Source: an uncultured Gemmatimonadota bacterium (lineage in GTDB: Bacteria > Gemmatimonadota > Gemmatimonadetes > Gemmatimonadales > Gemmatimonadaceae). Taken from it: DNA of 6,140 bases. Below, piece by piece: positions 1-6,140 of the stretch. Made by a program: the position numbers and the translations under genes. The stretch's first letter is position 1, and every line of letters starts with the position of its first letter. The notes below the pieces were generated by a model. The model saw nothing but the letters and a program-made list of their open reading frames with translations. It was not told the origin of the DNA and did no database searches. Location: the NCBI GenBank assembly GCA_946478895.1, contig CAMLDY010000134.1:1-6140 (forward strand). The letters run 5' to 3'.

Positions 1-56
1 GTAGAGGACCCCGCCCGACTGACCTGCGCCGCGATGCAACTAAAAGCTCACAACTC

Positions 57-941
57 TCAGCGCCGCGATGTGACGCGATTGGCGAGATCGGTAGTTGCGG
101 GTGGGGAGAGAAGCGCCTGCACCTCGCGCTTTCTCAGATTGAACTGCTGTCCTGTTCCAATGATTCCCACCCGCAGCGCGCTGATGGTCAGCTCGGGCCC
201 CGTCGTCACATCGGCGGCGTTGTTATAGCGGACGCTGCTCCCATCGACGAAGGTCACCCCGCCGCGTCCGATCACCGTGCCGATCTCGCGCTTCACCACC
301 AGCGCAGTGTCTTCGTCTATCCCCAGCCCCATTAACGCCGGAAACTCGGCGATCGCCACGAACAAGCGGTAGAGACGCCGACGTTGGGTGAAGTGGGTGT
401 CTACCAAAGTGTGAAAGCCGAGCAGGCCGAGCCCGGGGCCGATGTACTGTTCGACGAGCTTTCCTTCATCATCGACCTCATTGCCGGCAAGCGTCGTCTT
501 GGTCAATGCCGCCGCGCCGGCGCTCGTGCCGCAGACGGTCGCGCCCTCGATGTAGGCGTCACGGATTGCTTCGCCCAGCGGAGTCCCTCCCAGCACCGAC
601 ACCAGCTTCACCTGGTCGCCTCCGCCGAGAAAGATTCCTCGCGCGTTGCGCACACGCTCGGCGAGATTCTCGTCGGACGCCTGTTCGCGGGTCTCGACGA
701 CTGGAATCTCGACGTTGGTCGCGCCGGCCTGGGTGAGATCCGCGAGCCACATGTCCCGCGAGACTTTGACCTGGCTGGACGCAGTGGTGAGTCCCAGGAT
801 CGGGGCGCCATCGCGGGCGTTGGTCATCTCCACGAACCCCGCCAGCGCCGGACCGCCGGCAGTCGTGCCGCCCCCGATCAGCATCAGTGTGCCCGTTGCA
901 TCGCGCAGCCGGCGCGGATTCCGCTTTTGCGAGCCGCCCAC
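57..941 (-). CDS. cphB: Cyanophycinase (peptidase family S51), cytoplasmic type
   Basis: Cyanophycinase hydrolyses cyanophycin to beta-Asp-Arg dipeptides, using a serine in a nucleophile elbow (S51 family knowledge). Seen here, numbering from the GTG at 941 (294 aa, near the usual size of about 270-300): an opening strand LMLIGGG (19-25), GGGDQ (106-110), the elbow GTSAGA with Ser140, DTHF (181-184) followed by arginines 187, 189 and 192, and GIDEDT (207-212). There is no signal peptide or membrane segment, so the enzyme should act in the cytoplasm, unlike secreted cyanophycinases. Compared with the cyanobacterial enzyme as I remember it, the Gln of DQHF is Thr and the acidic GGAEDK stretch is replaced by GGGTTAGG. 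The start is uncertain. GTG 941 lies 16 bases after the upstream stop with a GGGGAGG run only 2 bases away. ATG 1010 has GGAG at 4 bases but would overlap the upstream gene by 53 bases. Function is confident, the start is not. Confidence 0.93.
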   Translation of the reverse strand: MGGSQKRNPRRLRDATGTLMLIGGGTTAGGPALAGFVEMTNARDGAPILGLTTASSQVKVSRDMWLADLTQAGATNVEIPVVETREQASDENLAERVRNARGIFLGGGDQVKLVSVLGGTPLGEAIRDAYIEGATVCGTSAGAAALTKTTLAGNEVDDEGKLVEQYIGPGLGLLGFHTLVDTHFTQRRRLYRLFVAIAEFPALMGLGIDEDTALVVKREIGTVIGRGGVTFVDGSSVRYNNAADVTTGPELTISALRVGIIGTGQQFNLRKREVQALLSPPATTDLANRVTSRR

Positions 942-957
942 CCCCTCCCCGGCGGCG

Positions 958-2043
958 CTAATCAGCGACTCCCGCGCTCTGCGGTCCCCGTGAGCTGACC
1001 GCCACGCCATCGAGCTCCACGTCCTTTGATTCGCGCGTGCTGTCGATCTCGGCGAGCGTGAACGCGGCGAGAGTGGCGGCGACCTGTGCATCGATCGGCG
1101 CCTTGTCGTGCAGCCAGCCGCCTTCGACGACACTGTCGAACTGCTCGATCATGATGCGCCGTCCGTCCACCGTTGCGCACGCGCGCGCAACTTTCTTGTC
1201 CTTCGTCGTGACATTGTCGTCGGTGGCAAAGATGGAAACGCGGCAGCCGGCGTCGCGCACCATGTCCTGGATCTCCCATTCCTTCGCGGGCACTATCACC
1301 ACCCCGTGCTCGGGAACGGCGTCCGCCACCACCGATAACAATCGGCGCGCGCGTCGCGGCAGCTGAAAGCGGTCCGGGACATCGGCGAGCGTGCTGTTGA
1401 GAATGATTGCGACGTCGGAGCGCGAATACGGCAGACCCGCCTGTAGCAGGTAGGACGGCGATACATCCACGATCAGGCCATCGGCTGCCGGAGCGCGGGC
1501 AACGAGCTCGTTCCGCGTTTCCGTTCGGTGATCACCACCCGTGATCCCACAGAGCACGTGCTGAACGATCAGCGGAGCCTGAGGTGTGCGCGCGAGAGCC
1601 GACAGCTCGGACACCGCGTGGTCCACGGATTCGAGCGTCCCCGCAAACGCCGCCTGCACTGCCTCGAGCGCCAGCGCCGCGGCGCGTAGCCCGACCGCCT
1701 CGTTGATGTGCTCGAAGATCAGCATGTATTCGCCGGGCGCTTCGCCGCCGCGGGTTCTTCCGTATCCGACATCGTGGCCGATCATGCCCTGCAGCTCGAG
1801 CGCGACGTGCTCAACGATGTGTGCGCAGTACGTTCCGCGCTTGAGACGGATGATGAATCCGCCCGGCTCGCCGATGCTGCAGCGGTGGTCGCGCAGCCCC
1901 GGCATCGCGGCGACCAGCTGCGTCGTGAACCATGGAACGTCGGCTGACGAGATGTTTTCGTACGCGCCTATCGTCAGGTCCATTCGGGTGATTGGCAGAC
2001 GCGACCAGTAGTTCGCGCCGCGCGTGGCATGCAGGCTCGTCAT
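958..2043 (-). CDS. Short cyanophycin-synthetase-like protein: CphA N domain fused to a degenerate Mur-ligase central domain, no ATP-grasp
   Basis: Function unknown; probably an accessory to the neighbouring synthetase. Numbering is from ATG 2043 (361 aa). Residues 1-150 align by eye with CphA 15-165, sharing RG-NYW, ISSAD, EPGGF-RL, HI-EHVALELQ (HxxEH at 75-79) and AVGL. Residues 160-330 resemble the Mur-ligase central domain of CphA (494-715), but the ATP-grasp domain is absent and so is the C-terminal ligase domain. Active-site motifs are eroded: the P-loop VTGTNGKTTT reads ITGGDHRTET (167-176, Lys to Arg), LETARGG reads VDVSPSY (192-198), and DHLG is lost, while the LN before it (215-216) is kept. 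It is therefore unlikely to be a ligase. A GTG at 2079 overlaps the cphA stop by one base (TAGTG) and would add 12 residues. I prefer ATG 2043 because it starts like typical CphA proteins, a few residues before RG-NYW, and has GAG 6 bases upstream. The frame is intact over its full length with conserved N-domain motifs, so it does not look like a decaying pseudogene. Confidence 0.88.
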   Translation of the reverse strand: MTSLHATRGANYWSRLPITRMDLTIGAYENISSADVPWFTTQLVAAMPGLRDHRCSIGEPGGFIIRLKRGTYCAHIVEHVALELQGMIGHDVGYGRTRGGEAPGEYMLIFEHINEAVGLRAAALALEAVQAAFAGTLESVDHAVSELSALARTPQAPLIVQHVLCGITGGDHRTETRNELVARAPAADGLIVDVSPSYLLQAGLPYSRSDVAIILNSTLADVPDRFQLPRRARRLLSVVADAVPEHGVVIVPAKEWEIQDMVRDAGCRVSIFATDDNVTTKDKKVARACATVDGRRIMIEQFDSVVEGGWLHDKAPIDAQVAATLAAFTLAEIDSTRESKDVELDGVAVSSRGPQSAGVAD

Positions 2044-2078
2044 CCGAATCTCGGTCTTCGGATCCGGAAACCCGCTCA

Positions 2079-4730
2079 CTATTTCACACCGTCGGCCGAG
2101 TGTTGCCGCACTGTCTCGAGCGTTCCCGCAACGTCGTCGGCGAGGATCACCACCAGATCGTTCTCGTTCATCAGCTCCATAGCGTGATCGATCGCTTCGC
2201 GCTCGCTGTAGATCGTCTCGTACTGATCGTCCCTCATTCCGCCATCGCGGAGACCTTCGACGATCAGCTCGGCGACGTGTCCGGGCTCGCGGCCGCGCAG
2301 ATGCCCATCTTCCTTGACCACCACGTAATCGAGCTTGGCGGCGAGCTTTCCGACTTTGCGAAGATCTTCGTCGCGACGGTCGCCGGGCGCGGCGACGACG
2401 CCGATCCTGCGATTGGCGTCGACGTTGCGCACGTACTCGATCAGCCCGCGAATTGCCGCCGGATTGTGCGCGTAGTCGACGAGCACTCTGCCTTTGGGCA
2501 CCCGCATCATGTTGAGGCGACCAGGCGTCAGCGACGGCGACGGGAAGAACGACAGGAGTCCGGCGCGAATGTCGTCGTAGCGCATGCCCTGGACGTAAGC
2601 CGTAGCGATCGCCGCCAGAATGTTCTCCTGCTGGAACTTCGCGGCGCCGCCGAGCATCAGCGGTACCTCGCGCACCGGCGCGATGGGGATGCGGAGCTTT
2701 CCGCGTCGAATCACGAAGGTGTCGTTCTCGATTCGCGCACCGATACCGTTTCGACTGAGATGATTCTCGAATTCCTCGCTCTCGCCTTCCGGTCGAGTAG
2801 AAAAGAGCACGAGATCGCCCGGCGTGCGGTCCCTCATCCTGTACACGAGTGGATCGTCGGCGTTGAGCACCGCGTGCCCCTCGCGCTTGACCACCGCCGC
2901 GACGACGGCCTTCACATCGGCCAGCTGCTCGACCGTGTTGATGCCGCGCATCCCCAGATGATCAGCGCTGACGTTGAGCACTACTCCGACATCGACTTCG
3001 TCGAAACCGAGTCCTGCTCGCAGCAATCCGCCGCGCGCGGTCTCGAGGACGGCGATGTCCACCGTCGGGTTTGACAGGATGATGTTCGCCGAGAAGGGGC
3101 CCGTCATGTCGCCCTCGAGGACGAGGCGGTTCTGCAGGTAGGTGCCGTCGGTGGTGGTGAAGCCAACGACGTTCTCGCCGAGCCGGAAGAGATGCGCGAT
3201 CAGTCGGACTGTCGTCGTCTTGCCGTTGGTGCCGGTGACAGCTATGACGGGGATCGTCGACCTGGTGCCGGGCGGATAAAGCATGTCCACAATCGGCGCC
3301 GCGACGTTGCGCGGAGTGCCTTCGGTGGGATGCGTGTGCATCCGGATGCCCGGACCCGCGTTGACCTCGATGATTACCGCGCCGTTCTCACGGAATGGCA
3401 CCGAGATGTTGGGAGTCAGCACATCGATACCCGCGATGTCGAGGCCGATGATGCCAGCCGCCATCTCGCACGCGGTAACGTTGTCGGGATGCATCTCGTC
3501 CGTGCGATCGATCGCTGTGCCCCCCGTCGAGAGATTGGCTGTGCCGCGCAGCAGAACTTCCTGCCCCTTCGCCGGCACCGACTCGAGAGTGAGGCCCTGC
3601 TTTTTCAGATAGCACACCGTGCGCTCGTCAGCCGGCAGTTTCGTCAGCGTCTTGGTGTGGCCGACGCCACGCCGCGTATCACGGTTCTCGCTCGCGATCA
3701 GCTGTGCGATCGTGCTCTTGCCGTCGCCGACCACGCGCGCCGGGATCCGCTCGGCGCAGGCGACGACTTTACCGTTGACTACGAGGACGCGGTAGTCGCG
3801 ACCTTCGCTGTACTGCTCGACGACGATCCGGTTGGCATACTCCCGAGCATCGTTCCACGCCTCTCGCAGCGCCGCCTCATCCTCGATGCGGGGCGAGATG
3901 CCGCGACCGTGACTGGCGTCGAGCGGCTTGAGAATTACCGGATAGCCGATCTCCTCGACGATTTCGAGAGCGCGCTCGATCGTTCGCGCGACATCGCCCT
4001 TTGGCACTGGCAATCCGATATTGCCGAGCACGCGTTTGGTATCGTCCTTGTCCTGCGCGATTTCGACGGCGATGGCGCTGGTGTAGTCGGTGAGGGTGGC
4101 CTGGATGCGGCGCAGGTTCTTGCCGAGTCCGAGCTGGACCAGTGAATAGTTGTTGAGGCGGCGCACCGGGATTCCACGGCGCTTCGCCTCTTCAACTACG
4201 GCGGCCGTCGAAGGCCCAAGTCGAACCGCCTCATAGAGCGAGAGCAGCTGCTCGACGATCGCGCCCGTATCGATTTTCTGTTCGGCGATGCAGGCACGAA
4301 TGATTCGCACCGCGTCGCGCATCGCCTGGAGTCCGACTTCTTCCTCCTCGTAGGCGACGATCACCCACCAGGTATCGGGATCGCCGGACGGGACGACGCG
4401 GCCGAAGCTGACATCGCAGCCGGCCAGCGATTGCAGCTCGAGAGCAACGTGCTCGAGGATGTGCGGGATGCGCGTTCCTTCCCTGAGCCGCTCGAGGAAC
4501 CCGCCCGGCTCCTGTCTGGTGCAGTGGTGCTCGGCCAGGGTCGGAATGCAGTCGGTAAGGCGCTCGTAGAACCCAGGGATGTCAGCGGAGCTTATCTGCT
4601 CGAGGGAGCCGAGCTGGACATCGCAGGCTATGACGGGGGCGAGGCGCCAGTAGTTGGGACCCCGCAGGGCGCGGATTCGTGATACCTGCAGCTCGTCCGC
4701 GTCGATCAGTGGCTCGGTTGCGGTGCTCAT
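2079..4730 (-). CDS. cphA: Cyanophycin synthetase (CphA1 type), full length
   Basis: It makes cyanophycin (multi-L-arginyl-poly-L-aspartate) from Asp, Arg and ATP in the cytoplasm. The 883 aa length fits CphA1. Domains in order: N domain about 15-165 with RGPNYW (23-28), EPGGF and HILEH (90-94); ATP-grasp domain about 170-487, which adds backbone Asp, with KPLDASHGRG (268-277) and EVNAGPG (455-461); Mur-ligase-like domain about 493-883, which adds Arg to the side chain, with P-loop GTNGKTT (500-506), LETARGG (562-568), DHLG (590-593), GRLN (737-740), DYAHNP (752-757) and GDRRDED (783-789). All key motifs look intact, so it should be active. The frame stays open upstream to 4949, but that part overlaps the dehydrogenase gene and has no CphA similarity, so ATG 4730 is chosen. 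This leaves about 20 extra residues before the usual CphA beginning. No clear Shine-Dalgarno precedes it; a small inverted repeat sits there instead. The stop TAG overlaps a GTG of the next gene. Confidence 0.97.
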   Translation of the reverse strand: MSTATEPLIDADELQVSRIRALRGPNYWRLAPVIACDVQLGSLEQISSADIPGFYERLTDCIPTLAEHHCTRQEPGGFLERLREGTRIPHILEHVALELQSLAGCDVSFGRVVPSGDPDTWWVIVAYEEEEVGLQAMRDAVRIIRACIAEQKIDTGAIVEQLLSLYEAVRLGPSTAAVVEEAKRRGIPVRRLNNYSLVQLGLGKNLRRIQATLTDYTSAIAVEIAQDKDDTKRVLGNIGLPVPKGDVARTIERALEIVEEIGYPVILKPLDASHGRGISPRIEDEAALREAWNDAREYANRIVVEQYSEGRDYRVLVVNGKVVACAERIPARVVGDGKSTIAQLIASENRDTRRGVGHTKTLTKLPADERTVCYLKKQGLTLESVPAKGQEVLLRGTANLSTGGTAIDRTDEMHPDNVTACEMAAGIIGLDIAGIDVLTPNISVPFRENGAVIIEVNAGPGIRMHTHPTEGTPRNVAAPIVDMLYPPGTRSTIPVIAVTGTNGKTTTVRLIAHLFRLGENVVGFTTTDGTYLQNRLVLEGDMTGPFSANIILSNPTVDIAVLETARGGLLRAGLGFDEVDVGVVLNVSADHLGMRGINTVEQLADVKAVVAAVVKREGHAVLNADDPLVYRMRDRTPGDLVLFSTRPEGESEEFENHLSRNGIGARIENDTFVIRRGKLRIPIAPVREVPLMLGGAAKFQQENILAAIATAYVQGMRYDDIRAGLLSFFPSPSLTPGRLNMMRVPKGRVLVDYAHNPAAIRGLIEYVRNVDANRRIGVVAAPGDRRDEDLRKVGKLAAKLDYVVVKEDGHLRGREPGHVAELIVEGLRDGGMRDDQYETIYSEREAIDHAMELMNENDLVVILADDVAGTLETVRQHSADGVK

Positions 4731-4731
4731 T

Positions 4732-4752
4732 CGGGTCGTTGGATAAGACCCG
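4732..4752 (-). promoter_or_regulatory. Inverted repeat abutting the cphA start codon (possible hairpin or operator)
   Basis: On the minus strand CGGGTC (4752-4747), a 9-base loop TTATCCAAC and GACCCG (4737-4732) form a perfect 6-bp inverted repeat that ends one base before the cphA ATG. In mRNA this would be a short GC-rich stem placed where a Shine-Dalgarno should be, and no GGAG-like sequence is seen there. It could limit translation initiation or be a repressor half-site pair. A chance palindrome in GC-rich DNA is possible. Confidence 0.3.
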
Positions 4753-4776
4753 TTAGCAGAGCAACGGCCGTTCCAT
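4753..4776 (-). other. Seven-codon mini-ORF in the cphA leader (MERPLLC)
   Basis: ATG at 4776 followed by six codons and TAA (4755-4753), ending exactly where the inverted repeat before cphA begins. A weak GAGAG lies just upstream, too close for a good ribosome site. It has one Arg codon and no run of regulatory codons, so a classical attenuator is not supported. It may be chance. Confidence 0.15.
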
Positions 4777-4857
4777 ACTCTCGGGTCCCGGGGCTCGGGC
4801 GCTCCGGCTGGCAACCTTACGTACTGTAGACGCTCACGAAGCGCCCAGGTCCCAGAC

Positions 4858-4872
4858 TCTGAGTTACTCAGA
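4858..4872 (-). repeat. Palindrome centred on the dehydrogenase stop codon
   Basis: Minus strand TCTGAG-TAA-CTCAGA is a perfect 6-bp inverted repeat with the stop codon as its loop; the arms extend to 9 bp with one mismatch. No T-run follows, so it is not a convincing intrinsic terminator. It could be a weak mRNA-end stem. Confidence 0.3.
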
Positions 4873-6140
4873 CTCCATGAACGGGTACCGATAATCGGTC
4901 GGCGGCGAGAAGGTTTCCTTGATCGCGCGCGGGCTGATCCACCGTACAAGATTCAACTTCGAGCCGGCTTTGTCGTTGGTGCCCGACCCGCGTGCCCCGC
5001 CGAACGGTTGCTGCCCTACCACGGCGCCCGTTGGTTTGTCGTTAATGTAGAAGTTGCCGGCCGCGTTGCGTAGCGTGAGGCTGGCTTCGCGAATTGCCTG
5101 CCGCTCGCGTGAGAACACCGCGCCGGTCAACGCGTAGGGCGATGTCTCGTCCACTATCTTCAGCGTCTCCGTCCACTGGTTGTCAGGATAGACGTGCGCC
5201 GTCACCACCGGGCCGAAGATCTCCTCACAAAGCAGGCGGTGCGACGGATCCCTGGTCTCCACCAGCGTCGGCTCGATGAAATATCCTTCGTCGCCACGCG
5301 CGACTCCGCCCGAGACGATGCTGGCGTTGTTGCGGCCATGCTCCAGATACTCGCCGATCTTGGTGAACGCCTTCTTGTCGATCACCGCGCCCATGAAGTT
5401 GCGGAAATCTGTGACGTCGCCCATCCGAATGTCCTTCATGATCGCGACGGTACGATCGCGCACCTCCGGCCAGATCGATTCAGGCACGTAAACCCGGCTC
5501 ACTGCCGAGCATTTCTGGCCCTGGTACTCGAACCCGCCGCGGGCGATGGCGACCGAGAGCGCCGCCGGATCGGCCGATGGGTGCGCGACGATGAAATCCT
5601 TGCCACCTGTTTCTCCGACGATGCGCGGATACGACTTGTAGCGCGACATACTCGCACCAATCGTCTTCCACATGCTGTTGAACACCGCCGTGCTGCCGGT
5701 GAAATGAACGCCCGCGAGATCGCGGTGGGAGAGCAGCTTGTCGGAGATCAGCGCTGCATCGCCCGGGACGAAGTTGATCACTCCCGGCGGCAGCCCCGCT
5801 TCCTCCAGCAGCTTCATGATGTAGTACGCGCTCAGCATCGCGCTCGAAGCCGGCTTCCAGATCACGGTGTTGCCCATCAGCGCCGGCGCGGTGGGCAGAT
5901 TTCCGCCAATCGATGTGAAGTTGAAGGGCGTCACGGCGTACACGAAACCCTCGAGCGGCCGATAATCGAGCTGGTTCCACATCGACCGGTCGCTGAGCGG
6001 CTGCTCGTCGTAGAGGCTCTGCGCGTAGTGCGGGTTGAACCTCCAGAAGTCGATCAGCTCGCAGGCGGCATCGATCTCGGCCTGGAACGCGGTCTTGGAT
6101 TGGCCGAGCATCGTCGCGGCGTTCAGGGTCGAGCGCCACG
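4864..6140 (-). CDS. pruA: 1-pyrroline-5-carboxylate dehydrogenase (ALDH4 type), 5' end outside the window
   Basis: It oxidises 1-pyrroline-5-carboxylate / glutamate semialdehyde to glutamate with NAD+, the last step of proline and of ornithine-derived arginine breakdown. About 424 residues are present of roughly 540 expected. The start lies beyond 6140: the frame is open to the edge and reads WRSTLNAATMLGQSKT, so the Met codon at 6111 is internal. Visible motifs are QAEIDAACELIDFWRFN typical of ALDH4, TPFNFTSIGGNLP, WKPASSA, FTGST (cofactor region), GETGGKD with the general-base Glu codon at 5611-5613, and GQKCSA with the catalytic Cys codon at 5509-5511. The C-terminal part has QQPFGGARGSGTNDKAG and ends PRAIKETF...YPFMESE. 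It is a single-domain enzyme; no proline dehydrogenase domain is fused to the part seen. Its closeness to cyanophycin genes suggests a role in burning stored arginine, but transcription with them is unproven across the 133-base gap. Confidence 0.96.
   Translation of the reverse strand, partial: WRSTLNAATMLGQSKTAFQAEIDAACELIDFWRFNPHYAQSLYDEQPLSDRSMWNQLDYRPLEGFVYAVTPFNFTSIGGNLPTAPALMGNTVIWKPASSAMLSAYYIMKLLEEAGLPPGVINFVPGDAALISDKLLSHRDLAGVHFTGSTAVFNSMWKTIGASMSRYKSYPRIVGETGGKDFIVAHPSADPAALSVAIARGGFEYQGQKCSAVSRVYVPESIWPEVRDRTVAIMKDIRMGDVTDFRNFMGAVIDKKAFTKIGEYLEHGRNNASIVSGGVARGDEGYFIEPTLVETRDPSHRLLCEEIFGPVVTAHVYPDNQWTETLKIVDETSPYALTGAVFSRERQAIREASLTLRNAAGNFYINDKPTGAVVGQQPFGGARGSGTNDKAGSKLNLVRWISPRAIKETFSPPTDYRYPFMESE

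Follow-up and report, generated by a model that had tools for sequence, protein, structure and literature searches.

What is the function of a gene that joins the N domain of cyanophycin synthetase directly to a dead Mur-ligase core, and that lies between the genes for the synthetase (cphA) and for cyanophycinase (cphB)? The question was raised by a 6,140-nucleotide stretch of DNA from an uncultured Gemmatimonadota bacterium (GenBank assembly GCA_946478895.1, contig CAMLDY010000134.1, positions 1 to 6,140), the whole of which is referred to here as the window. We computed the architecture, predicted fold, conservation, difference from partner synthetases, synteny and selection of the encoded protein, termed here mini-CphA.

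Gene order and two-domain architecture

The genes of the window are read from the minus strand. An L-glutamate gamma-semialdehyde (P5C) dehydrogenase gene, truncated by the window edge (4,864–6,138; TIGR01236, 671 bits against a cut-off of 613.6), lies upstream of a full-length cphA (2,079–4,724; TIGR02068, 1137.7 bits, cut-off 850), which is followed by the mini-CphA gene (958–2,079; frame intact in the ORF listing) and then by cphB, whose open frame (57–1,133; TIGR02069, 181 bits, cut-off 126.6) overlaps the 3′ end of the mini-CphA gene. P5C dehydrogenase is an enzyme of arginine and proline catabolism. The mini-CphA is 361 aa long from an in-frame ATG at 2,043, the end given by the first-pass annotation, and 373 aa long from a GTG at 2,079; the GTG is the likelier start, because a PDPKTEIRM-like stretch is found upstream of the ATG in 10 of 39 aligned relatives and because the GTG has one base (G) in common with the cphA stop in the sequence TAGTG (2,077–2,081), through which the two genes are possibly coupled in translation.

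The N domain (residues 1–154 of the ATG form, 1,582–2,043; PF18921, 6e-35, and predicted model) is joined directly to the Mur-ligase (M) core (residues 157–335, 1,039–1,575; predicted model), and the ATP-grasp module is missing. A Pfam search of the protein returned no ATP-grasp match and, among matches listed up to an E-value of 1, no Mur_ligase_M match; TIGR02068 scores it at 168.3 bits, below the curated cut-off of 850. The Mur-ligase central-domain fold was recognized in the predicted structure: an AlphaFold model built on a 110-row alignment (pLDDT 94) superposes on polymer-bound SuCphA1 E82Q over N and M (326 residues, 2.4 Å), with the aligned residues spread over SuCphA1 chain 3–710 and confined to its N and M parts, and the N domain is predicted to dock on the M core as it does in CphA1. 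CphA1 structures may have been in the AlphaFold2 training set. This model supersedes a first AlphaFold2 model (pLDDT 71.7, rmsd of about 16 Å to CphA1) in which the relative placement of the domains was uncertain. The superposition rules out an unrelated fold for residues 155–335.

The ligase motifs GTNGKT, ETARGG and DHLG are eroded across the family alignment, the P-loop reading GITGGDHRTET in the window protein (residues 166–176, 1,516–1,548). The mini-CphA differs from MurC, MurD, MurE and MurF in this erosion of the P-loop, ETARGG and DHLG and in having no C-terminal Mur domain. The core has kept residues of the family's own, such as Gly169, Arg173, Pro196 and Gly203. Two of these lie in the former P-loop, where Gly169 is found in 240 and Arg173 in 237 of 241 rows (the window protein and 240 retrieved relatives, the best 120 of 1,475 and the best 120 of 492 matches, some of which may equal the genomic minis described below), though ATP binding should be lost there. 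The intact gene, the model of the protein alone and the eroded motifs thus bear out what the first-pass annotation had described, an N domain joined to a Mur-like segment at residues 155–335 that is dead as a ligase.

A conserved family beside cphA

In a survey limited to no more than 5 to 8 scored candidates from each genome, 99 of 395 Gemmatimonadota genomes had a match and 32 carried a mini-CphA; samples of four other phyla yielded no mini-CphA, the A2 profile matching N domains there in 29 of 398, 32 of 296, 91 of 244 and 76 of 249 genomes (1e-20), with every match ending by model position 225 of 337. The two-domain form is complete or largely complete in all of the 32 genomic minis except three truncated by contig ends (L073, L079 and L083, the last with the N domain only). 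A cphA match is present in all 32 mini-bearing genomes and lies within 300 nt upstream of the mini in 27 of them; for the remaining five it lies at 323 nt (one), at 3.2 kb (one), on another contig (two) or at a contig edge (one). Directly downstream, a cphB of at least 45% identity follows in 27 of 32 loci, and three of the other five end at a contig edge. At L080 and L082 no such cphB was found within 4.7–4.8 kb downstream, and the mini still follows cphA. L082 matches a record of Roseisolibacter agri, which we take to be a cultured species, at 100%.

Several candidates were rejected as minis: the frames of G1579, G1545, G1552 and G1081 continue into an ATP-grasp region, G969 is a cphA with an interruption and G1339 is an N-M-C paralog. 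Other unusual arrangements were noted in passing. A paralog at L177 (1,618–3,876; from the phylum of a Bacillota locus) has N, M and C domains and no ATP-grasp Pfam match, its N site and M motifs looking intact; at L176 (2,840–7,000; from the phylum of a Bacteroidetes locus) cphA is interrupted just past the N domain by about 2.3 kb; and L201 (2,934–6,999; same phylum as L176) holds adjacent CphA-like frames of 708 aa and of 568 aa or more, possibly a split pair.

The minis form one clade in both N-domain trees (100/100 in the first, 100/99 in the second). In the second tree (67 rows, 185 columns), which left out long rows and is preferred, they are sister to the partner-type CphAs (99/97); its rows comprised 16 of 33 minis, 12 of 33 partner-type CphAs, 20 of 22 other CphAs and 19 of 21 Pseudomonadota genes with an intact N site and a broken M domain, the N-dead partners of the latter being left out. 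In the first tree (88 rows, long branches flagged) the minis join the other CphAs (94/85) and show no sister relation to the partner type. The stem branch of the mini clade is long in both (1.37 and 0.91). We propose that the mini arose by duplication of an ancestor of the Gemmatimonadota partner CphA.

The family is under purifying selection, as judged from codon comparisons: dN/dS was below 1 in 12 of 12 pairs for the N domain and in the 11 pairs with finite values for M, the N domain having the lower ratio of the two in 11 of 11 comparable pairs (12 tried); the values are rough because dS exceeds 1 in many pairs. These ratios, together with 1,475 relatives at an E-value of 1e-3 or better (best 120 read), rule out a decayed copy free of selection. 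Distances among minis correlate with those among CphAs (Mantel r 0.83, n 30), a correlation confounded by species relatedness. The survey, the preferred tree and the dN/dS values agree with the earlier suggestion of a gene that came about by duplication and internal loss, and they show a family conserved beside cphA rather than isolated decaying copies.

The putative metallopeptidase site and polymer groove

The N domain of CphA1 is described by Sharon et al. (2022; PMC9262961) as a metallopeptidase-like endo-cyanophycinase (Cx19HxxEH) that cuts cyanophycin into primers, its motif being present in 83% of CphA1s; according to the same source, polymer at the SuCphA1 N site contacts the side chains of E90, R70, Y110 and S60 together with S603 and E607 of the M domain. 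The mini carries the corresponding site, H53-x-C55-x19-H75-xx-E78-H79...E83 with F63 and R66 (1,795–1,887), in which H53, C55, H75, E78, H79, E83, F63 and R66 align with SuCphA1 H57, C59, H79, E82, H83, E87, F67 and R70 and are invariant in 40 of 40 alignment rows. Cx19HxxEH with the H57 and R70 equivalents was found in the window mini and in 240 of 240 retrieved relatives, and H53, C55, S56, R66, H75, E78, H79 and Y106 are kept in 241 of 241 rows, among them the equivalents of the polymer contacts S60 (Ser56), R70 (Arg66) and Y110 (Tyr106); E90 has no conserved counterpart in the family. All 32 genomic minis have Cx19HxxEH, with the E87 equivalent replaced by Ala in three (L079, L082 and L083). 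The first-pass annotation had taken the protein for a pseudoenzyme, a label that suits the ligase part, whose motifs are gone, and finds no support for the protein as a whole, whose N-domain catalytic site appears to be kept.

From the M core, Ser237 to Asp241 (1,321–1,335; family-profile hmmsearch alignment) bring the residues that align with SuCphA1 Ser603 and Glu607. Asp241 is invariant across the 241 rows; of the 33 rows formed by the window and the genomic minis, 31 have Asp at this position, one has Glu, and one, L083, which ends at a contig edge, is gapped there. More variation is tolerated at position 237 (Ser 154, Asn 66, Thr 9, Ala 8 and Gly 4 in 241 rows). The mini thus shares with the SuCphA1 N domain (PDB 7txv; PF18921) the metal ligands, the general base, most polymer contacts (R70, S60, Y110, partly S603 and the acid at 607) and, in the model, the N-M arrangement; unlike SuCphA1, it is a separate gene without ATP-grasp and Mur C-terminal domain, with eroded ligase motifs and E90 not conserved. 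We propose that its Mur core, no longer ligating, is kept as a docking platform for the N domain and would form one wall of the polymer groove, with Asp241 in place of Glu607. The platform role is suggested by the report that the N domain of SuCphA1, when expressed on its own, becomes soluble only after mutation of the loop packing on M (PMC9262961). The M core is shortened in L082, which indicates that the whole of it is not needed in every mini.

Partner-type CphAs differ at two of these contacts. Among 33 such rows (30 from the window or mini-bearing genomes; the rest L160, L161 and L166, which runs off its contig), position 607 is never acidic (Ala 29, Ser 2, Gln 1, Arg 1) and Tyr110 is absent throughout (Trp 30, Thr 1, His 1, gap 1); the metal ligands are kept in 32. 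The 22 other CphAs have Tyr110 in 22 and an acid at 607 in 18 (20 and 17 of 20 after removal of two Pseudomonadota pair members). These counts point to a polymer groove that is complete in the mini and altered in the partner type. We infer the direction of change to be that, after the duplication, the partner CphA lost N-site polymer contacts (Tyr110 to Trp, Glu607 to Ala and the backbone contact Thr101 to Val) and, in a single genome, even the metal site: at L071 the partner site, with the changes H79F, H83R and R70A, is dead and the mini intact, with no third match among the 5 of 24 candidates scored in that genome. The idea that minis exist because their partners simply have no metal site is ruled out by the 32 of 33 that keep the ligands; partner-type CphAs may therefore still supply primers for themselves, and the mini may serve otherwise. 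Also against the proposed division, L160 and L161 have the same Trp110/Ala607 in genomes in which no mini was found; each of these genomes holds a second CphA with Cx21HxxEH, Tyr110 and Glu607.

The spacing of the motif varies among Gemmatimonadota CphAs more widely. In loci L091–L159, almost all of which belong to genomes where no mini matched, Cx21HxxEH occurs in 62 of 69 and Cx19HxxEH in 6 of 69, so that a general absence of the N site from other Gemmatimonadota CphAs is ruled out; the single locus with neither motif, L157, is from a mini-bearing genome. The common form is two residues longer than the published Cx19HxxEH, and counts based on Cx19 may therefore miss intact sites. Elsewhere, a third CphA-like locus in a mini-bearing genome (L165, 5,135–7,910) has an eroded N domain out of frame with its G-M-C part, and a Mur_ligase_M plus Mur_ligase_C protein with an extra N-terminal part of about 300 residues (L160, 5,953–7,980) adjoins a Cx21-type CphA.

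A separation of sites is also found in Pseudomonadota, where 21 of 22 chosen loci (L020, L021 and 20 of 29 matching genomes, L178–L197, 16 of them picked for a short frame, hence a non-random sample) have two adjacent cphA genes, one with N intact and M broken beside one with N dead and M intact; L183, the one exception, is cut off by a contig edge, and in L195 and L197 the damage to the M motifs is confined to ETARGG. All 21 N-intact/M-broken genes encode Asp at 607, against an acid in 1 of 21 of their partners (Gln 18, Leu 1, Arg 1, Glu 1). The acid thus travels with the peptidase, not with the ligase, in support of the role proposed for Asp241. Tyr110 does not follow this pattern, being kept in 19 of the 21 N-dead partners. 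Nor is the acid an unfailing mark, because it is also carried by the N-dead partner in L182 (Glu) and, in our alignment, by TmCphA1 (Glu607), although the latter is reported to be without the N site (PMC9262961). By its motifs, such a pair looks like a two-subunit synthetase. Like the mini, it places the primer-site domain on an M-broken subunit with an acid at 607, encoded by an adjacent gene; unlike the mini, it has ATP-grasp (Pfam, L020 and L021), the partner N site is dead, and 19 of the 21 N-intact/M-broken N domains form a clade of their own (100/99, second tree) apart from the minis. CphA1 and CphA2 genes are reported side by side in Sideroxydans (PMC5178258), and our literature search found no paper on a division of sites between paired cphA genes.

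A probable priming role, its alternatives and a possible split of building from cutting

The mini-CphA is probably an endo-cyanophycinase dedicated to supplying primers to the CphA whose gene lies just upstream. By means of a Cys-His-His metal site and a general-base Glu, its N domain would cut nascent chains into short primers for CphA; we infer metal binding, cleavage and the primer role from the kept site. A precedent is the report that the isolated SuCphA1 N domain, carrying two solubilising mutations, makes TmCphA1 primer-independent when supplied in trans (PMC9262961). That the mini cuts cyanophycin at all is very likely and is the stronger claim; we favour priming over breakdown as its main purpose with less assurance.

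Breakdown, the main rival, would have the mini make internal cuts, creating ends for the neighbouring exo-enzyme CphB, and the position of the mini between cphA and a directly adjoining cphB in most loci, like the P5C dehydrogenase gene upstream of cphA in the window, would suit it. We nevertheless consider it unlikely as the main role: L080 and L082 keep the mini behind cphA with no such cphB nearby, every mini genome has a cphA match, the substrate contacts are altered in partner-type CphAs and the whole site is dead in that of L071, and CphB alone is reported to degrade granule strands rapidly (PMC9262961). Less probable still is a non-catalytic partner, forming mixed oligomers with CphA or holding the growing chain. 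Both the N domain and the M core superpose on CphA1 in the model, the N domain is described as binding polymer loosely (PMC9262961), and docking on CphA is conceivable because the M core of TeCphA1 touches three G cores (PMC9427784); against this, a pure holder would not be expected to preserve metal ligands and general base in all 240 retrieved relatives, and the mini has no G core, the part that gives TeCphA1 its large dimer interface (PMC9427784). A metal-dependent peptidase or sensor that has taken up a new substrate with no relation to cyanophycin could account for the long stem branch and for the Mur core's own kept residues and is very improbable given the retained polymer contacts R66, S56 and Y106, the acid at 241 and the cphA in all 32 mini genomes, within 300 nt in 27.

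The mini is in its retained site the opposite of CphA2, the cyanobacterial beta-Asp-Arg polymerase and likewise a derived CphA1 relative: CphA2 keeps one ATP-dependent ligating site (PMC10206079) and is reported to be without the N-domain motif (PMC9262961), whereas the mini has the motif and no ATP-grasp match, so that the earlier separation of the two types is upheld. The site and its function are already known; what seems new is a separate gene with an N domain and a dead M core without ATP-grasp, on which no report was found in a literature search that had most subscription papers outside its scope. Some members bear the NCBI name 'cyanophycin synthetase family protein', which hides their difference from the synthetase.

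In CphA1 building and cutting reside in one polypeptide and hence, as pointed out by Sharon et al. (PMC9262961), cannot be balanced by expression. The mini family looks like a naturally separated version of these two activities, in which separate genes may let the cell set cutting against building by expression rather than at a fixed 1:1 ratio. It is quite possible, if somewhat short of probable, that bacteria have at least twice split a self-priming polymerase into a builder and a starter, the Gemmatimonadota starter consisting of the primer-cutting site and a dead-core wall, the builder's substrate contacts having decayed and the ratio of chain start to chain growth being set by expression. 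If active, the mini would be a small tool, available from a named carrier (Roseisolibacter agri), to test how the supply of primers governs the number and length of chains, and, if the proposed groove is right, the retention of a dead ligase domain would be explained as part of another domain's active site.
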